Below, piece by piece: positions 474 through 14,906 of a stretch of DNA of 64,000 nucleotides (its first letter is position 1; each line of letters begins with the position of its first letter). This DNA is from Paraflavitalea pollutisoli (lineage in GTDB: Bacteria; Bacteroidota; Bacteroidia; Chitinophagales; Chitinophagaceae), in assembly GCF_029360705.1 (NCBI RefSeq), contig NZ_JARKMX010000008.1:1921949-1985948 (forward strand), in the 5' to 3' direction. A program made the position numbers and the translations under genes. The notes under the pieces are model-generated. The model was not told the origin of the DNA. It saw nothing but the letters and a program-made list of their open reading frames with translations, and made no database searches.

Positions 474-3017
474 TTATTTGTCTATGTAATCAAACAGCGT
501 TGGCATCTTCGCACCTTGCTCAGCAGCTTTACAGTAGGCCGCGCCGTCGATGAAATAATTGTGGTTAAGTTCGAAGCCGATACCATAGCGGCCATGCTTT
601 ACAGCTTCGGAAGGCACCGTCATCAGCCCTCCGAACGGGTCAAATACCACATCACCAGGCTCCGACATCTGCGTGATCACGCGATCCGCGATATCGAGCT
701 GCATGGGACATAGGTGCATTTCGCGCCCTTTGTTGTACTGGGTACTGTTGAGCGTACGCATCCGGGTGATATCGGTCCATACCTCGTCGGACCAGCTTTG
801 CGGCTGAAGGAGCATGAACGTGGTGGGCAGCTTACCAGCTACCTGCAGGGCGTCGCCTATCGCCACATGGTACTCGAAGTCGTACACATGGTTCAGAGAA
901 TATTCTTTGAACACCTTGAATATCTTGTCATGCTCGAGGCCTGTTATCTCTTCCGGCAGCAAAGGCCTGTTACCTGAAGACCTGGTGAAGCCATGCGCGT
1001 CCACCTGCCAGCGGGAAAGGGAATACTCTTCCTTGCGCTTCTCGACCGGTTCATCGGCGTAGCTGTTCGTGCGATCGGTCGGCGGCTTGCGGAACAACAG
1101 CAGGTATTCGGGCATGCCTACGCCCATCTTCGTGGCGTCTTTGCACTGCTCCGACCATCCCAGTCGGTAAGTCTGGTTGTTCTCGCGCACCACATCCGTG
1201 ACGATCGTTTTCATGCCGAGGTAGGCAAATCCATGTTTCCGGTAGTGGTTGATGGTGTCCAGGTGAAAGGGGTACACCTCCTGACAGCCCATCCCTGTCA
1301 TACCCATGGGAACGATACGATCCTTTACGTGGATGGCAGCGATCCTGCCGGGCTTCAAGGCACGGTACACTTCCGGCGTCAGGTAATCCATCTGTACGAA
1401 GAATTCTTCGTTGCTTTCACTGTGGCCGAAGTCCGAATAATTAGGGGAGTATTCGTATTGAGAAGAGAAGGGAATGCTGGTCAGCACCAGGCCAATACTA
1501 TCGGTTTCCAGTCTTCTGGCCTCGAGTACTGCATCATTGTGCACGATCCGGTACCGGTCGCCTTTGATCTCTATCCTTTCTACTCCGATTTTCCTAGTTA
1601 GCAGGCTGGCCATGGCCGCTTGTGATAGGCCAAATTCTTTGATGATGTCCGTCATTACTTTTACTTGTTTGATGTGGTTACGCCATTTCGTTTCGAGTAT
1701 CTTCCGCACCTCGCGTTCCGCTTCAGTGTAGATCAGGTCAACGCGTACCTGGTGAGTCTGCAGGAATCGACGCAGGCGATGAATGGATTGTATAAAGTCG
1801 TTGAACTTAAAGCCAATTCCCAAGTAGATCGCCCAGTGGCAATGACGCTGCAGGTTGGTGCCTGATCCGATCATTGAAGGCTTGCCGCCAATCTCATCGA
1901 TCACACCGGTAGAGAAATCGGCAATGATCGCCTCCCGGTCTTCCAATGCCTGTTTTCCGTATACCGTTGCACAGGTTGGAATTGCCCGCTCGATCGCTTC
2001 ACGTTCGCTTTCCAGGTCGTGCCAGATAATTCGGTGAGCAGCTGGGTCTTCTTTGCGCAGCTCCATCATTTTCGCGATACGAGCCGGCAGGCTATCCCGC
2101 TTTTCCTTTGCGGCGCCAGGCAGGCCGAGCGCGATATCTTTAAACATCCGGCCCTGCCCACTCTTTTCGGTACCGGCGTTTGTGTGATCCGTTGGCAGTT
2201 CATGCCAGCGCAGGTCGAGCTCAGGCAAGATATACCCTTCATCATCTGCTGGATCGTCAGTAAGGTCCGAAGGCTTTGTAACGAACAGCGCCCAGCTGGC
2301 CACCCATAGCCAGAACTCCCGTTCCTTGTGTGCATGCAGCGTCAGCTTATCAGCCTGCGTGCTGTCGCGCTTGAAAAACCTGGTTTTAGCCTGGCTAATA
2401 TCCATAACCCCAAGGAAGTCCGCGTAAGCCAGCAACTCGATATAGTCGTTGGGCGAAGGCGTTGCCGTGGCCACGAAGCGGTAAGGGACACACTGGGTAC
2501 CGCGGCGATCACCCATCGGGCCGCCATCACCCGTGAACAGGCGCATGAACTCACGGAAGGTCTTACTACCGCCAAAGCCGCGCAAGATTGATGCTTCGTC
2601 AAGGCTGGCCGCCTGAAACATTCGCGGATCCAGTTTACCGTCGCGGACCGTTTCGTAGTTGGTGATGTATATACCGGTCTCTTCGCACTCAGCGATCGAT
2701 CGCACAAACTTTGGCGGTGTTTCCCAACCGAGGATATTCCTCGAGTCGTTGATGAATTCCTGCCGAACGCCGAGCGGGGCAATGATCAATCCGCGGCCGC
2801 CTGTCCTGGTCAGAATTATCCTAATGGTTTCCAACTGCGTAACCGTCTTGTGAAGGCCAAAGGATGCGAAATTTGCCCGTTGTCCGCCTTCGACGTTCCA
2901 CTTAACCATGAACCGGTTGTGTGGCTTTAAGGCCGGGTTTATCTCGTTCAGATCAACCTCGAAGCCAGTTGACTTCGCCAGCTTTACCTTGTTCTTCAAA
3001 AAGTCTTCGTAGATCAT
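474..3017 (-). CDS. SF2 helicase-DNA methyltransferase fusion
   Basis: An 847-residue two-part protein. The N-terminal part (about 1-450) resembles a SNF2/DEAD-type superfamily 2 helicase: a degenerate Walker A (SFGLHKT, 52-58), a DEAS box (140-143), motif III ATATPSP (183-189), a GSGTNLQ motif (384-390) and a QSIHRLRR motif VI (410-417). The C-terminal part (about 500-847) is an amino-DNA methyltransferase with motif IV TSIPFSSQY (513-521) ahead of motif I FDPFGG (792-797), the order of beta-class N4-C/N6-A enzymes. Motif IV has IPF where most family members have PPY. ATG overlaps the DUF1064 stop (ATGA), so the two are translationally coupled. It probably modifies phage DNA against host restriction. 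No nuclease domain is visible. Confidence 0.8.
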   Translation of the reverse strand: MIYEDFLKNKVKLAKSTGFEVDLNEINPALKPHNRFMVKWNVEGGQRANFASFGLHKTVTQLETIRIILTRTGGRGLIIAPLGVRQEFINDSRNILGWETPPKFVRSIAECEETGIYITNYETVRDGKLDPRMFQAASLDEASILRGFGGSKTFREFMRLFTGDGGPMGDRRGTQCVPYRFVATATPSPNDYIELLAYADFLGVMDISQAKTRFFKRDSTQADKLTLHAHKEREFWLWVASWALFVTKPSDLTDDPADDEGYILPELDLRWHELPTDHTNAGTEKSGQGRMFKDIALGLPGAAKEKRDSLPARIAKMMELRKEDPAAHRIIWHDLESEREAIERAIPTCATVYGKQALEDREAIIADFSTGVIDEIGGKPSMIGSGTNLQRHCHWAIYLGIGFKFNDFIQSIHRLRRFLQTHQVRVDLIYTEAEREVRKILETKWRNHIKQVKVMTDIIKEFGLSQAAMASLLTRKIGVERIEIKGDRYRIVHNDAVLEARRLETDSIGLVLTSIPFSSQYEYSPNYSDFGHSESNEEFFVQMDYLTPEVYRALKPGRIAAIHVKDRIVPMGMTGMGCQEVYPFHLDTINHYRKHGFAYLGMKTIVTDVVRENNQTYRLGWSEQCKDATKMGVGMPEYLLLFRKPPTDRTNSYADEPVEKRKEEYSLSRWQVDAHGFTRSSGNRPLLPEEITGLEHDKIFKVFKEYSLNHVYDFEYHVAIGDALQVAGKLPTTFMLLQPQSWSDEVWTDITRMRTLNSTQYNKGREMHLCPMQLDIADRVITQMSEPGDVVFDPFGGLMTVPSEAVKHGRYGIGFELNHNYFIDGAAYCKAAEQGAKMPTLFDYIDK

Positions 3018-3436
3018 ACTTCCTTGATATCGATGTTTAACAATTGCTTCATCAGCTTTTTCTTTAACCGGTACGCCCGGTTTTTCCTCGTGGCGTCGCT
3101 CTTCACATCCTCCACTACCTTTTCCCCGGTTGCCTGGATCACGTATACGAAGTCCGCGACATAGCTGCTGATCTTGCCGCCGTTCACTTCGAGCTCGTAG
3201 ACCACCTGCAGCTCCAGAAAACCGATTTCGCCTGCCTTCTGCATAATCTTCAACTGACCGTACCGCTTCCCTTCCTTGGCGCTGTCGAACCTGATCCCAT
3301 CGATCTCGACCACCTGGTTGCCGTACTTCGATCGCTTCGTCGACCTCTCCTTCTTGTGCTGGCCGGCAAACAGGTGAGGGTTCCTGGCGGCGCAGGCGGT
3401 CTTCTGCAGGGCTGCTATGGTCATGTGTGCTTTCAT
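3014..3436 (-). CDS. DUF1064 phage nuclease-like protein
   Basis: About 140 residues from the ATG at 3436. The reading frame stays open further upstream, but this ATG overlaps the stop of the preceding gene as TGATG and is preferred. The core (KYGNQVVEIDGIRFDSAKEGKRY onward is shown only in part here: a KYGN start, an F-D-S-x-x-E-G motif, then VADFVY and a VEDVKS strand) matches DUF1064, a small phage family with a PD-(D/E)XK-like fold. The conserved E, D and D-x-K residues look intact. Members lie among phage replication and recombination genes and are thought to act on branched DNA; that function is inference here. Confidence 0.75.
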   Translation of the reverse strand: MKAHMTIAALQKTACAARNPHLFAGQHKKERSTKRSKYGNQVVEIDGIRFDSAKEGKRYGQLKIMQKAGEIGFLELQVVYELEVNGGKISSYVADFVYVIQATGEKVVEDVKSDATRKNRAYRLKKKLMKQLLNIDIKEV

Positions 3437-3657
3437 CAGTATGCGGTAAACTGGTCGCGTTCCTTTTTCTTTTCGTGGTATGCCGCTCTTACACAGGCCT
3501 TGCATTTGTTGCAATGACCGTCTGCCGATGACCGATTGATTGGAAAGGCGCTGAGTGGTTGAGGTCCATTATCCGGACAACCATAACATACCTTGCTATC
3601 AGATTTTGGTTTCACTGATGCCTGGGAAGGAAACCTGTAAAGCCTTATTTCTCCCAT
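3436..3657 (-). CDS. Small zinc-ribbon protein
   Basis: A 73-74 residue protein with a CYGC pair, a PLSAF segment, and a CNKCKAC cluster followed by a lysine-rich helix. This spacing resembles the treble-clef zinc site of phage endonuclease VII/HNH-like proteins, but no catalytic histidine pair is obvious. The start is either the ATG at 3657 (TGATG overlap with the preceding stop) or a GTG one codon upstream. It is coupled on both sides within the phage operon. Function unknown; probably nucleic acid binding. Confidence 0.55.
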   Translation of the reverse strand: MGEIRLYRFPSQASVKPKSDSKVCYGCPDNGPQPLSAFPINRSSADGHCNKCKACVRAAYHEKKKERDQFTAY

Positions 3658-5263: not shown

Positions 5264-5698
5264 CTAGTTGTGGTCGGAAAGAACCTTCTTCACCTCTTGG
5301 ATGTATGCCTCCACCTTCTTGGTCAACTCCACTGTCCTAGAATGGCCTGTGTAGAGAAGATCCTTGTGGGTCAAATAACCGTGGTAGGCCGTAGTGTGAT
5401 CTCTGCCGCCAAGCCTCTCGCCAATCATCTTCCAAGTTGTTATGCGGGCCTCATAGCTGAAATAGGCGATAAGCTGTCGGGCCGCTACAATTGCCCTTTT
5501 CCGCTTTTTCCCAACGAGCTCTTCCTCTGTGATGTCGGTGACATGGCTTACTATTTCGACAACCTGGTCGAGACTTAAGCGCGGACCCTTGTCTTCGATT
5601 GGTATGAGGCGAACTTCATCGTTATTCACCAGAGATTTGAGCTCCGAATTCCATCCGGCGATTTTCTCCTGCACTTCAGGGCTTTGAATGTTTAACAT
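5264..5698 (-). CDS. Stand-alone DnaA domain IV protein
   Basis: A 144-residue protein whose residues 40-140 match the C-terminal DNA-binding domain of DnaA. The GGRDHTTAYHG stretch (97-107) is the DnaA signature (usually GGRDHTTVLHA), preceded by the KKRKRAIVAARQLIAYF helix (64-80). The AAA+ domain of DnaA is absent; only about 40 unrelated residues precede the domain. Such a protein could bind DnaA-box-like sites, either to mark a phage origin or to compete with host DnaA. It is followed 31 bases on by the possible replisome organiser, so both are probably part of one initiation module. Confidence 0.8.
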   Translation of the reverse strand: MLNIQSPEVQEKIAGWNSELKSLVNNDEVRLIPIEDKGPRLSLDQVVEIVSHVTDITEEELVGKKRKRAIVAARQLIAYFSYEARITTWKMIGERLGGRDHTTAYHGYLTHKDLLYTGHSRTVELTKKVEAYIQEVKKVLSDHN

Positions 5699-6717: not shown

Positions 6718-6889
6718 AGTGTTCTTCCTTTTGGTCAGCGATGCTTTGCTTCAGTTCCTTGGTGGTGAAGATCTTGTCAGCATGCGTCCTGCGGGCCCAG
6801 GCGATCAGCTTCTCCTCCGGGAAAACATCTTCTGGATCGAGGGTTTCAGCTACCTCAGCGATGGTGTATTGCTTATCCTGCGATTGCAT
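6701..6889 (-). CDS. Small acidic phage protein, unknown
   Basis: A 62-residue acidic protein (EVAETLDPEDVFPEEKLIAWARR) starting with an ATG that overlaps the nuclease-FtsK gene by 17 bases. Its TIAEVAETL and FTTKELKQSI segments could be the helices of a small helix-turn-helix, but this is weak. Kept because of its coupling on both sides. Confidence 0.5.
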   Translation of the reverse strand: MQSQDKQYTIAEVAETLDPEDVFPEEKLIAWARRTHADKIFTTKELKQSIADQKEEHFVPDY

Positions 6890-8900
6890 GAGGAGTGGTT
6901 TCGGGTTTGAAGTATGCCTGGAAGCGAACGGTGTCGTTGTACTCAGGCGATTTGATCAAGCCGTCACCCTTACCGGTCAACGATTCGGCGCCTGCCTCAT
7001 CGAGTACGACCTTGCTGTCGATTTCTTTAGGCATCCGGAAACAAATCTGCACGGGGAAGTTGGCCTTTGCGTCACCAGTAATCACCTTGACCGAGGCCCG
7101 CTGAGTGCCAGCTACCAGGCGGATACCGCAGGACCGTCCTTTCTGCGCAAGCTTCCGCAAGTTGATCTCAAGGGTCTTGCCTGCGTTGGAAAGAGCGTCG
7201 GCGAACTCATCAAAAATCACAAGCGTATATTCCTCCTTACCCTGCTTGACCAATTGTTCCATGTGCACTACCAGTTTATCCATGGCATCGACTATCTCCT
7301 CTATATCGTTAATAACCAGAATACCCTGGCGGCGGTACTTCATGAAATCTCTTGAATATTTGGGGTCCAGGATAATTATGTTGTCGATCTCCTCTTTTGC
7401 GTACTCAACGATGTTGGTCATGCAGACTGATTTACCTGATCCTGTGGCGCCGCATACCAGCATGTGGGGAGTACTATGGTTCTCGAGGTCCCAGTATACA
7501 ACGTCCCCGTAGTTGTCCCGGCCTATCGGGATTTTCTTGCCAACACGATCGTTAGGCTCAAACAGCAGGATGCCGTTCCTTTCCTTGGGAGCTTCGATCG
7601 ACAGGTAGGATTTACCTTTGTAGACTTTCATTTGGCTGCTGATCCGGACGTTGGCCACGTCAAGGGCGTTGGCAATGTCCATTCGATAGCCGTAGATCGA
7701 AGCAACCCGTACACCGGCACCGACCTCAACCAGGTAAGTGTTGCAGCTATACCCCTCGAAGACGTGCGCAACCTTTGCCAGAACACTGAAAGTTTTCAGA
7801 GCATGCTCAATCTTCTGCTCTGGGGTCATGTCTTTGTTACTCATATCGTATTGAATAAATTTATCTGCGTTTTGCTTAAATTTTCGGATGATAGTGGGGC
7901 TGATCATCTCGCCCGCTGAGTCGCGGATCTTCCTCAGTCGCTTGCCGACCAGCTCCTTTTTCGATTCCTCGACGTTGAAGTCTTCCACACTCACCTCGCT
8001 GATCATGGTGCGGGCCCAGAAGTCATACAACTCAGCCATATCGACGAACTTATCCGAGTCATTGATCAGGTAGACGTAATCCGCATCACTGACTGCCTCG
8101 AGCATTCTCCTTAACGGCTCGTACAACAATGCTTCATAAAGGCGGCGAGTGCTATCGGTAATCTCCACTGGCATCTTAGCCAACTGGGCGCTTTTGTCCT
8201 TGTTTTGGCTGTACTTGTTCTCGATGAACCAAACCTCATCAACTGTCAAACCGGTTTTGGTCTCAAAACCTTTTACGTAGGTGATCGCCTGGATGCCGAT
8301 GGATAGCGCCATCTCATCCTCCGGCGTGAACGCATTCTTGCTTTTGTGATCTATCAGGACGATCCTGTCGTCGTTCAGGCGGATACCAAGGTCCATTTTG
8401 AAGTTGAGCGGCAGGGGGATGTCAACACCGTTCACTGTCACAAACTCGCTCCCATACATCTCCACAAAGAGAACTTCGGCCAGGTCTTCTTCATAAAGTG
8501 CTTTCTCTGTCCAGAAGTTTTTGAGCAGGGAGGTAACCTTTTTCACTGCATCCAGGTGGGCGGCCTCGACGGTCGGAGTGGTTTTCTGCAGCTTCCATTT
8601 ATTTGCACCGGTCGAAGCCAGGTAATCAAAAGCTGCCTGCTCCATCTCGATTAGATCGATCTGCTTACCTTCCATTTTCTGGGCAAAGTAGTAGTCCAAT
8701 GCTGCGTGGTAGGCGTTCCCGGCCATGGTAGTAGAGCTCGATTTCGAGTAAACACCGTAGATGTGCTGCATCTCGAACGCCTTCTCGTTGCGGGCAAATC
8801 CGGTAACCTTTGAGTAGCTCCAGCTGCTCACCAGGAAGTTGCTCAGAAGTTCCTCAAGCTGCTCAGGTTCGTAGCTGCGGTATTGGCTTTCTGTAATCAT
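6873..8900 (-). CDS. RecB-like nuclease-FtsK ATPase fusion
   Basis: A 675-residue protein with two enzyme parts. Residues 20-250 carry RecB/Cas4-type PD-(D/E)XK nuclease motifs: GNAYHAAL with H65, D170 in KMDLG, the catalytic DHK at 184-186 and QAITY at 204-208. Residues 385-665 are an FtsK/HerA-type motor: a short FtsK beta-like region, Walker A GATGSGKS (484-491), Walker B VIFDEFAD (561-568) and a sensor-like VAGTQR (596-601). No membrane segment and no gamma (KOPS-reading) domain are present. The ATG overlaps the ERF stop by four bases. It probably resects or translocates DNA ends for the ERF annealing protein; this is inference from domains and context. Confidence 0.85.
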   Translation of the reverse strand: MITESQYRSYEPEQLEELLSNFLVSSWSYSKVTGFARNEKAFEMQHIYGVYSKSSSTTMAGNAYHAALDYYFAQKMEGKQIDLIEMEQAAFDYLASTGANKWKLQKTTPTVEAAHLDAVKKVTSLLKNFWTEKALYEEDLAEVLFVEMYGSEFVTVNGVDIPLPLNFKMDLGIRLNDDRIVLIDHKSKNAFTPEDEMALSIGIQAITYVKGFETKTGLTVDEVWFIENKYSQNKDKSAQLAKMPVEITDSTRRLYEALLYEPLRRMLEAVSDADYVYLINDSDKFVDMAELYDFWARTMISEVSVEDFNVEESKKELVGKRLRKIRDSAGEMISPTIIRKFKQNADKFIQYDMSNKDMTPEQKIEHALKTFSVLAKVAHVFEGYSCNTYLVEVGAGVRVASIYGYRMDIANALDVANVRISSQMKVYKGKSYLSIEAPKERNGILLFEPNDRVGKKIPIGRDNYGDVVYWDLENHSTPHMLVCGATGSGKSVCMTNIVEYAKEEIDNIIILDPKYSRDFMKYRRQGILVINDIEEIVDAMDKLVVHMEQLVKQGKEEYTLVIFDEFADALSNAGKTLEINLRKLAQKGRSCGIRLVAGTQRASVKVITGDAKANFPVQICFRMPKEIDSKVVLDEAGAESLTGKGDGLIKSPEYNDTVRFQAYFKPETTPHAIAG

Positions 8901-9676
8901 GGCATTACGGGGGCTTTCGTTTTACCTTCAGGCAATTCCTCCTGGCGGGCTTTAAAAATGGCCTTGACCCGTTCGTCCGCATCGACAGCCTTTAAGTTCT
9001 TCAGGTATAATTGAGTCAACTGAAATCGCGATGTAGCACCTTTGACCAATTCTTTCCATTGGGCCAACATCTCTTCTTCAGTGAGCTCCTTGGACTGGTT
9101 GTCTGAAGCTCCGGGCTTTGTGGTTTCGCCATCGTTGTCCTCGTCGGCTGTGGCCAGGCCAAGGGCGCCGATCAGTGTGTAACGCTGCAGGTATGTATGG
9201 GTACTGCCTTTCTGCTGGATATCGTTTTTGCCGCCTGTGGCATCAACACCCGCTTCCATTTCGGTGGTTTCGGTGTGGCCGTCACGATGCGATACCAGGC
9301 AGACAACCTTCAGTTTGCCATTGGCCTCTTTGAATTCCCAGCGGTAGGAAAGGCCACACATCTGTAATGCCTCCTGTATCGCACCCCGAATGGTTCCCAG
9401 ATCGGCAAACCGGTATGAATAAGATCCGCGCGCGGATGCTATCTTGGCGATCTTCTTTTTAGGTATTACCGGGCACCGGGTTTGGAAAAGAGCCAGCGCG
9501 TCCAGGAAGGCCTTCTTCGCCTGCTTCTGCTCCCATCGATCCTGTAGATCCATCAGCTTCTGCAACTGATCAAGGTCCACACCCTTGGCAATAGCCTGCT
9601 CCAATAGCACTATGGGCGTCACAGGTGCAGGCACCTCATTTTGCACATTGCTCTTGGCGATTGATTTTTGATCCAT
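8897..9676 (-). CDS. ERF-family single-strand annealing protein
   Basis: A 259-residue phage recombinase of the ERF superfamily. The diagnostic core is at about 40-170: an ALALFQ helix, PVIPKKK, SYSYRFADLGTIRGAI, LSYRW, a cysteine-leucine-valine strand with HRDGH, and KGSTHTYLQRYTLIGALGL. ERF proteins coat single-stranded DNA and anneal complementary strands, often for phage circularisation or repair. The C-terminal 80 residues are charged and poorly conserved, as usual. It is translationally coupled (4-base overlap) with the nuclease-FtsK fusion, giving an annealase/exonuclease pairing like lambda Bet-Exo. Confidence 0.88.
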   Translation of the reverse strand: MDQKSIAKSNVQNEVPAPVTPIVLLEQAIAKGVDLDQLQKLMDLQDRWEQKQAKKAFLDALALFQTRCPVIPKKKIAKIASARGSYSYRFADLGTIRGAIQEALQMCGLSYRWEFKEANGKLKVVCLVSHRDGHTETTEMEAGVDATGGKNDIQQKGSTHTYLQRYTLIGALGLATADEDNDGETTKPGASDNQSKELTEEEMLAQWKELVKGATSRFQLTQLYLKNLKAVDADERVKAIFKARQEELPEGKTKAPVMP

Positions 9677-13054: not shown

Positions 13055-13594
13055 ATGAAAGGATTGCTGTTCTTTTTTCTTGTTGCTCCTTTTATATCGT
13101 TCAGTCAAACAGCGCAAGACTCTGTAATATCATTCACGGAGGTCGTTAGATGTGACAGCATCAAAAAAGAAGAACTTTTCGTTAAGGCTCGGCAGTGGTT
13201 CAACGCTAGCTTCAAGGACGCCAGAAGCGTTGTAAGAATAGCAGACAAAGAAACCGGCGAGATTGTGGCAAAAGGCATTGTAATATCTCAGCACTGGTAT
13301 AAAGCGTTGGGTAAGGAAAATAAGATACCAATTTTATATGAGGCTGATATTGCTATATACGTAAAGGATGGACGATACAAGTATGAATTTAAGAATTTCA
13401 TTGACATTGAAGAGTCAAGCATTAAATACACCGGTCCATTGACCACTGCGAAAGCATATCCAGCAAAGGGTTATCGAAACAAGGTGATCATGGATAAAAT
13501 TTGGAATAGCCAAAAGGAAGAGATTGCCATTACCATCAGCGAATTAGTAGTAGGTCTTAAATCATATATGAGCAAACCCGCAGACGATTTTTAA
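13055..13594 (+). CDS. Secreted DUF4468 protein, likely prophage cargo
   Basis: A 179-residue protein with a signal peptide (MKGLLFFFLVAPFISFSQ) and a DUF4468 domain at about 25-120, a TBP-like fold common in exported Bacteroidota proteins: FTEVVRCDSIKKEELFVKARQWF, then DKETGEIVAKG. It lies between the repressor and integrase, transcribed towards the integrase, with the two stops overlapping by four bases (TTAA). This position is typical for genes expressed by the lysogen, so it may alter the host envelope. Function unknown. Confidence 0.75.
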   Translation: MKGLLFFFLVAPFISFSQTAQDSVISFTEVVRCDSIKKEELFVKARQWFNASFKDARSVVRIADKETGEIVAKGIVISQHWYKALGKENKIPILYEADIAIYVKDGRYKYEFKNFIDIEESSIKYTGPLTTAKAYPAKGYRNKVIMDKIWNSQKEEIAITISELVVGLKSYMSKPADDF

Positions 13595-14676
13595 ATAGTC
13601 TTCAACACAGCCGCCTGCTCAACAATGTCTACCCCGGCCAAGTGATAGTACACTTCAACCACTTTCACTGTAATACCCATCAGTTCGGCGGTAACAGACT
13701 TTGGCAGCCTCCGGGACGCACAGATGTAACCGAATGTATGCCTGCCGACATGGGTCGTAATTTTCCGGTCAATTCCAGCCATTAATGATATAACCTTTAG
13801 CATGCGATTTATTGCCTCCTTTGTTTGAGGAGGAGGTAGGTTCTTAACTCGTTCGATTATGCCAGCCAGGGTAGGTCCTATTGGCAATACGACGAACTCA
13901 TTGTTCTTTCTGGCCCGCAGCCTCAGAAGATCATTTTCTACCATCCTGCCGGCATCAAATTGCTTCCAGTCGCTGTACCTCAGCCCGGAATAGCAGCCCA
14001 GTAGGAAGTAGCAAAGCGATTGATACACCGACTCCGGAAGATCCTTGTCAAATAGGTTATGAAGTTTTTTTAGTTCATGGTCGGTAAGGTAGACTCGATC
14101 TGTTTGCTCGTATTTGGGCATCAGGAAATTGTCCATAGGATTTACCTTTATTAATCCCTCTCTTTCGGCCTGATTCAGTGTACGCCGTAGGTATTTAAAG
14201 GTGGTGTTTATGGTATTCTGCTTCATCCCGCGCGCCCGCTCATGCTGTTCGTACTTTCGCAAAAACTCCCCATCAATATCCGTCAGGAAGGTATCCGGGC
14301 AGAATTCCAGCAATCTATTTACCTCCTTAACATCACCCCGTGTAGATCTGAGCTCCAAGGCAAAATCCTTGAAAGATTTCTGCACCGTTCCCCGCTTGAG
14401 AAGCTTTCCGGTTATCTTTCCACCCTGCAGCTGCTGGACGGTGATATGCCCTTCCAATTCCGATATCTGTTTGCGTATATTTGCGTTGATCGCCTTGTGG
14501 TTGGGATAATCCCGTACTTCCTTCTTATCTTCATCCCACTGGCCTGTATTGACCTTATAGGAGGTTTTGAGGTAGTTTACCTTCCTGTTTATCGTTATTG
14601 CGATCATGATCGGGCATAGACCCTTCTTATCTTCTTTATGGCGCCATAGCACTGGTCGAATCGTGAAGTTGAGCAT
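13591..14676 (-). CDS. Tyrosine integrase of the prophage
   Basis: About 361 residues from the ATG at 14676; a longer reading frame exists but this start matches the Bacteroidota integrase N-terminus. Domains in order: arm-type DNA-binding (VLWRHKEDKKGLCPIMIAI), a SAM-like core-binding domain, and the catalytic domain with R in YSGLRYSDW, K in RARKNNEF, HVGRHTF, and a VEVYYHL block holding the tyrosine. All catalytic residues seem intact. It is transcribed away from tRNA-Arg, whose 3' end it faces, as expected for an integrase next to its attachment site. Confidence 0.88.
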   Translation of the reverse strand: MLNFTIRPVLWRHKEDKKGLCPIMIAITINRKVNYLKTSYKVNTGQWDEDKKEVRDYPNHKAINANIRKQISELEGHITVQQLQGGKITGKLLKRGTVQKSFKDFALELRSTRGDVKEVNRLLEFCPDTFLTDIDGEFLRKYEQHERARGMKQNTINTTFKYLRRTLNQAEREGLIKVNPMDNFLMPKYEQTDRVYLTDHELKKLHNLFDKDLPESVYQSLCYFLLGCYSGLRYSDWKQFDAGRMVENDLLRLRARKNNEFVVLPIGPTLAGIIERVKNLPPPQTKEAINRMLKVISLMAGIDRKITTHVGRHTFGYICASRRLPKSVTAELMGITVKVVEVYYHLAGVDIVEQAAVLKTI

Positions 14677-14793
14677 TTGGTAAAACGTTGGTATAACCAA
14701 GGTAAAACATTTGCCGAAAACTGGGGACTTTTGAGGACGAGTGAGGAATGGCCACAAAACAACGAAACGCTTACTGGGCCTGAATAAAATACA

Positions 14794-14817: not shown

Positions 14818-14832
14818 GATAAGCGGTATGTG

Positions 14833-14906
14833 TGACCCCGTCTGGATTCAAACCAGAAACCTTTTGATCCGTAGTCAAATGCTCTATTCAATTGAGCTAC
14901 GGGGCC
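14833..14906 (-). tRNA. tRNA-Arg (ACG), probable attachment site
   Basis: A 74-base cloverleaf on the minus strand: acceptor GGCCCCG/CGGGGTC with one G-T wobble, D-arm GCTC/GAGC, anticodon stem TTTGA/TCAAA with loop CTACGGA (anticodon ACG), T-arm TCTGG/CCAGA with a TTTGAAT loop, discriminator A, no encoded CCA. The 3' end points at the prophage integrase. tRNA 3' halves are the usual target of tyrosine integrases, and integration normally rebuilds the gene, so this is likely one end of the element. Confidence 0.9.

Follow-up and report, generated by a model that had tools for sequence, protein, structure and literature searches.

We describe a gene family in which one protein chain joins a PD-(D/E)XK nuclease to an FtsK-type motor, while the annealase gene that precedes it is exchanged between unrelated families, nearly all of whose members share a short C-terminal tail. 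The representative studied lies in a window of 64,000 nucleotides from Paraflavitalea pollutisoli (G000:C15:1921949-1985948, the whole stretch of DNA analysed), where the fusion gene (6873..8900, minus strand) encodes 675 amino acids (aa) and, by the coordinates of the open reading frames (ORFs), shares an ATGA start/stop overlap at 8897..8900 with the gene of an ERF annealase (8897..9676, minus strand, 259 aa). We consider it likely that the gene encodes a motor-driven nuclease that resects double-strand ends, supplies the exonuclease of a two-component phage recombinase and lets annealases dock by their C-terminal tail. An earlier reading of this DNA (the original prediction) had proposed a RecB/Cas4-type nuclease joined to an FtsK/HerA-type ATPase and feeding ERF; it is partly supported by the results below, and the annealase exchange and the common tail go beyond it.

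A PD-(D/E)XK nuclease joined to an FtsK-type motor

Pfam analysis of the 675-aa chain placed a PDDEXK_1 nuclease domain at residues 26-250 (8151..8825; this and the following features are on the minus strand), with 35.0 bits against a cut-off of 22 (E 1.9e-8) and the active-site motif (H), D, (D/E)xK, Q of the PD-(D/E)XK superfamily, as the original prediction had expected of the N-terminal part. A conserved linker without a Pfam family (residues 251-356, 7833..8150) leads to an FtsK alpha domain (residues 358-438, 7587..7829; PF17854, E 3.3e-11), which in FtsK forms the DNA exit ring, and then to an FtsK RecA-like motor (residues 456-665, 6906..7535; best FtsK_SpoIIIE stretch at residues 456-549, E 2e-15) with Walker A (GATGSGKS, residues 484-491, 7428..7451) and Walker B motifs. 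The best solved relatives by sequence are the FtsK motors 2ius (E 4.8e-37) and 2iuu (E 6.3e-34). An AlphaFold model of the full chain (mean pLDDT 89.0, pTM 0.71) also matched FtsK motors (6t8o, E 1.1e-24); its matches to PD-(D/E)XK folds were weaker and included the ACE1/Cas4-family structure 9iac (E 1.9e-8) and Dna2 (5eax, E 2.6e-9).

The motor is called FtsK-type because of its alpha domain. HerA was rejected as its family, since the best matches in both sequence and fold are FtsK proteins, and the fusion does not show the HerA motor with HAS barrel plus NurA nuclease gene of HerA-NurA; the HerA half of the earlier label is kept as a working analogy. Nor is the chain a complete FtsK: the 675 residues contain neither the N-terminal membrane part nor the C-terminal gamma domain, and as the chain ends about 10 residues past the motor it has no room for this DNA-reading domain. 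The host's own FtsK-like gene is 49% identical to the fusion over residues 558-664. Cas4 is defined by four conserved cysteines holding an iron-sulphur cluster. Only two cysteine columns are frequent in the nuclease domain of 102 aligned sequences (79/102 and 83/102), and the window sequence has neither, so a Cas4 with such a cluster was rejected and "Cas4-type" holds for the nuclease fold only.

Relatives were collected from IMG/VR scans (20 loci, and 79 loci from the best 80 of 99 relatives) and from genome contigs (78 loci from the best 80 of 142, 32 of the 78 matching the N-terminal half). At least 130 loci, 109 of them distinct over both sources, match the N-terminal half of the fusion. 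We rejected an assembly artefact, or the mistaken merging of two separate genes, because these 130 loci come from many contigs and 102 of them hold complete fusions of 650-760 aa; among the incomplete ones, L012, L020 and L093 are cut at contig ends, L090 has a frame break and L095 a long insert. In the last (L095:3784-6684) about 280 extra aa interrupt Walker A between GATG and SGKS, starting with C and ending with HN before S, so that the insert looks intein-like.

The architecture is kept throughout alignment A2, which comprises the window sequence and 101 complete relatives 46-67% identical (L015 and L130 stand outside it). The nuclease residues named in the original prediction are nearly invariant in these 102 sequences (H65 101, D170 102, D184 102, H185 101, K186 102, Q204 102, Y208 101), and so are K490 of Walker A and D564 and E565 of Walker B (102 each); H65 is replaced by D in L097 and in L130. 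The linker reaches a mean majority identity of 0.71 over the 102 sequences, equal to that of the motor, and our guess is that it might be the receptor for the annealase tail. Record titles place the relatives mainly in Bacteroidota (Chitinophaga, Flavihumibacter, Flavobacterium, Tenacibaculum, Pedobacter, Chryseobacterium, Dysgonomonas and uncultured Bacteroidales), and a few metagenome-assembled genomes are labelled as other phyla. In L130, an isolate genome of Puniceicoccaceae (Verrucomicrobiota), a full fusion of 42% identity is preceded by a phrog_3657 gene whose product ends in KLP.

Unrelated annealases precede the fusion

To describe the partner, the longest ORF ending near the fusion start was taken as the slot gene in 108 distinct loci (the 109 above minus L034, at a contig edge); these genes were then clustered and representatives identified. 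In the window the slot is occupied by ERF (PF04404, 60.3 bits against a curated cut-off of 25, E 2.8e-16; phrog_155, E 7.8e-35). This is a rare case, as ERF was found in 3 of the 108 loci, with the window extra, and it thus cannot be regarded as the special partner of the fusion. The commonest slot family is phrog_3657, of unknown function (31/108), followed by RecT types (phrog_148 and Bet-like, 19/108; phrog_561, 15/108), Sak4-like proteins (phrog_1366, AAA_24; 17/108) and Rad52 (5/108). The family-less cluster cl4 (11/108), cluster cl7 (3/108) and the L074 protein (1/108) have no known function, and HNH, HTH and phrog_18326 proteins occur once each; at two of these last three loci (L067 and L091) an annealase with an intact tail lies further upstream, and at L082 no annealase was found at the locus. 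An annealase gene thus adjoins the nuclease gene, the arrangement of a two-component recombinase, in 59 of the 108 loci if established families are counted, and in 46 more if candidate families are added. The fusion is constant and the preceding annealase is exchanged between unrelated families; the gene order that the original prediction looked for in other Bacteroidota holds as regards an annealase, rarely as regards ERF. This order makes the fusion the nuclease component of such a recombinase in phages, its activity and the complex with the annealase being predicted.

FtsK/HerA-type ATPases are also found in defence, and PADLOC returned partial matches of the fusion to the mad8 (E 1.3e-25), SspH and HerA models. 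The fusion could accordingly be a DNA-degrading weapon of the prophage, directed against host or rival DNA or serving in defence, with the annealase a mere neighbour. We consider this very unlikely, as the PADLOC matches are confined to the motor, the partner is an annealase or a candidate in most of the 108 loci and belongs to at least three established kinds, and the annealase tail tracks the fusion, as follows.

A shared C-terminal tail tracks the fusion

The window ERF ends in GKTKAPVMP (8900..8926, minus strand), a motif common to unrelated annealases, for which the consensus at the C-terminus is [KP]-[VIP]-[DE]-[LM]-P. Besides the KAPVMP of the window, slot proteins end in NKVDLP, PKLDLP, KVELP, KPEMP, KIILP, SPTLL or APELM. 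With [LM][PLM]-COOH as test pattern, the tail was present in 94 of the 108 slot genes and in 7 of 597 other ORFs of at least 100 aa in the same loci, two of these seven being the annealases displaced by an inserted gene in L067 and L091. The stricter form [LM]P was found in 79/108 slot genes, and in 2 of 356 members of the same families without the fusion. Among the 14 slot genes that miss the pattern are several near-variants (ELY in L054; LK in L114, L115 and L092; [LM]A in L020, L033, L131 and L050; DLPS in L103), one with an in-frame stop before a readable EEMP (L049) and one with NDMP readable in another frame (L123); the others are L082 and, counted as misses even if their displaced annealase carries the tail, L067 and L091.

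Family by family, IMG/VR members with the fusion were compared with members lacking it. The tail was present in 14/16 versus 2/47 for phrog_3657, 13/15 versus 0/57 for Sak4, 1/1 versus 1/67 for RecT561, 1/1 versus 0/65 for ERF, 2/3 versus 1/60 for RecT148 and 5/6 versus 3/60 for cl4, that is, 36 of 42 with the fusion against 7 of 356 without it (Fisher p 7e-38, which is not a true probability since the rows are related). The 42 fusion rows of this control overlap the 108 slot loci. Set aside were 2 truncated loci and another 38, all tail-less, in which less than 1.5 kb of sequence follows. Misses among the 42 are L184 (SPTLM readable in another ORF), L251, L268, L284, L552 and L588, and the seven tails without a fusion are in L216, L228, L366, L553, L585, L586 and L611; near-variants in some fusion-less phrog_3657 loci, such as GELPL (L204) and GKLPLA (L207), were not counted. 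Trees built with the tail columns removed show at least 14 changes of fusion state and 13 of tail state for phrog_3657 (78 rows), and at least 4 of each for Sak4 (72 rows).

Of five pairs of annealase family alignments compared by profile, two (A3-A7 and A3-A6) yielded no match; the remaining three aligned best over the C-terminal tail, but scored weakly (A3-A11, E 0.066; A4-A11, E 0.021; A4-A9, E 0.009). A longer motif before the tip, K-K-x-x-[LMI]-[KR], is present in 48/104 proteins with the fusion and in 3/296 without it; as it is absent in the Rad52 and ERF rows we do not call it general. One host SSB ends in SQDLPF, so that the tail resembles an SSB tip minus its last F. RecT proteins of the phrog_561 type at loci without the fusion (L391, L404, L407, L409 and L373) have SSB-like acidic tips (DDDDDF, EEDDF, DTDPF).

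The tail might instead be a by-product of gene joining, its codons being acquired as DNA and either kept for translational coupling or left by recombination at the junction. An overlap of exactly four bases is found in 52 of the 108 slot genes, whereby the tail codons double as the ribosome-binding region of the fusion, and 65 of 93 tails finish with the codon CCA. We nonetheless regard this explanation as unlikely: 31 tails belong to genes that do not overlap the fusion, 15 of them at gaps of 17-207 bases, the leucine at position -2 uses six codons and the proline four, all three stops occur, and the two annealases displaced by inserted genes kept the tail. The non-overlapping tails, the varied codons and the varied stops indicate a constraint at the protein level.

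Stand-alone nucleases in the absence of the fusion

Five of the slot families were followed in 296 loci without the fusion, and in 170 of these the downstream sequence holds a nuclease-like gene from a single group linked by BLAST. In a sample of 50 members of the group, 21 match YqaJ and 1 matches DUF3799, and E117, D151 and K164 (alignment numbering) are kept in all 50. The fusion therefore occupies a place in which related phages often carry a stand-alone exonuclease.

This bears on a further alternative, in which the motor would serve to move or segregate phage DNA (as a packaging aid or in concatemer handling), the nuclease only trims it and recombination is secondary. Other phages do encode FtsK-like translocases that lack this nuclease: 219 of 50,697 annotated phage records (INPHARED) match the fusion, the 50 matches listed cover the motor half, and none of the 219 spans 80% or more of the query. 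Yet the prophage carrying our fusion has terminase and portal genes of its own, 101-102 of the 102 aligned sequences retain the active site of the nuclease, and many fusion-less relatives hold stand-alone nucleases in the slot, so a DNA-moving role of this kind seems highly improbable.

Proposed mechanism

We return to the reading of the fusion as a resection nuclease with docked annealases. The chain would assemble into an FtsK-type ring of six subunits. DNA would go in at the motor (beta) side and out at the alpha side; in FtsK, according to a passage of PMC7321959, double-stranded DNA passes the beta ring first and leaves at the alpha ring, so a nuclease N-terminal to the alpha domain should sit at the DNA exit. 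An excerpt of PMC9960219 likewise gives the N-terminal HAS barrel of HerA as the DNA exit, where NurA sits, and states that a bacterial NurA-HerA digests the 5' strand while translocating, leaving a 3' tail. The N-terminal PD-(D/E)XK domains would cleave one of the strands at the exit to give a 3' single-stranded tail, both resection and its polarity being presumed, and the annealase translated just before the fusion (ERF here; RecT, Sak4, Rad52 or others elsewhere) would be held there by its C-terminal tail and loaded on the newly made single strand. The single-chain resection machine of the original prediction is, in these terms, what we infer from the sequence.

Lambda Red beta, as part of PMC7496540 reports, binds the exonuclease through its C-terminal domain, and recombination is abolished once the 11 C-terminal residues are removed. 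By analogy, the tail may be the counterpart of this connector for annealases that otherwise share little. In a more specific form, the chain would accept at least three unrelated annealase kinds (RecA-like Sak4, RecT and Rad52/ERF) as well as undescribed ones through the same acquired plug peptide, which would bind near the DNA exit and hand over the single strand as it is pumped; for this plug-and-socket scheme we judge the chances to be evenly balanced.

Several points weigh against our interpretation. The tail data are an association, from which binding to the fusion is presumed. The phrog_3657, cl4, cl7 and L074 proteins count as candidate annealases; for phrog_3657 the function is deduced solely from slot and tail, its model (pLDDT 82) gave no match with E <= 0.001 against the Protein Data Bank, and hhalign detected no core similarity of A3 to the RecT, ERF or Rad52 alignments. 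Applied to the trees, a two-sided pair test has 5 and 3 supported pairs, too few to reach 0.05, as few of the changes fall on well-supported branches. The family is also rare: a single one of 395 drawn Bacteroidota genomes, the window's own, has the fusion at E <= 1e-30.

Comparison with known systems

AddAB and RecBCD, in which a RecB-type nuclease is joined to SF1 helicase motors for end resection, resemble the fusion in coupling such a nuclease to a DNA motor and differ in that the motor here is an FtsK-type ring. FtsK and SpoIIIE share its alpha and motor domains, whereas the fusion lacks the gamma domain and carries a nuclease where they have the membrane part. With HerA-NurA of archaea and Deinococcus-Thermus the fusion would have in common a ring translocase of double-stranded DNA from the FtsK-HerA superfamily and a nuclease at the DNA exit, a position predicted here. 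The NurA nuclease is of another fold than PD-(D/E)XK; furthermore, HerA-NurA is made of two genes and has a HAS barrel, whereas the fusion is one chain with an FtsK alpha domain instead, is phage-borne and adjoins an annealase gene. The ring-shaped translocase with a nuclease at its exit, making 3' tails, is described for HerA-NurA in sections of PMC9960219 and PMC12977600.

Lambda Red (Exo and Red beta), RecET and YqaJ-RecT likewise place an exonuclease gene beside an annealase gene, and part of PMC8093625 reports recT adjoining YqaJ or DUF3799 nuclease genes in phages of Firmicutes. Unlike these nucleases, the fusion is predicted to include an ATP-driven translocase, and unrelated annealase families that share a tail are all paired with a single nuclease family. 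In a literature search neither the fusion nor the tail was found described; related fusions may appear in the FtsK-HerA survey by Iyer et al. (2004).

If our interpretation is true, phages have assembled a single-chain equivalent of HerA-NurA or RecBCD out of different components. The shared plug is the most novel part of the finding: annealases would be exchangeable cartridges with a common connector, which would explain recombinase swaps between unrelated families, and the tail would serve as a sequence tag for finding unknown annealases. Should the plug-and-socket scheme hold, phrog_3657 and two further families would be identified as new annealases. As RecT-exonuclease pairs perform poorly outside their own context, according to an excerpt of PMC8093625, the fusion might also offer a route to efficient double-strand recombineering in Bacteroidota.

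The prophage and neighbouring genes

The fusion sits in a tailed prophage of about 54 kb integrated in a tRNA-Arg gene. The prophage adjoins a tyrosine integrase gene (13591..14757, minus strand; Pfam Arm-DNA-bind_5, Phage_int_SAM_5 and Phage_integrase), its extent being given by the two copies of a 21-bp repeat that bound it. The right copy, a probable att site, lies at the 3' end of the tRNA-Arg gene (14832..14852, no strand assigned) and the left copy at G000:C15:1882654. Terminase, portal, head morphogenesis and tail genes were found left of the window, where ten ORFs were scanned, and a reverse transcriptase gene of the same prophage lies just left of it (L025:17795-19027, minus strand; phrog_1423, E 1.3e-125). 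Inside the window, the same replication-recombination run includes, on the minus strand, a DUF1064/Holliday junction resolvase-like gene (3014-3514) and a stand-alone DnaA C-terminal (helix-turn-helix) protein (5264-5698). An 847-aa chain with helicase-like and N6/N4 DNA methylase parts (474-3017, minus strand) matches phrog_16 over nearly its full length, as well as PF01555.

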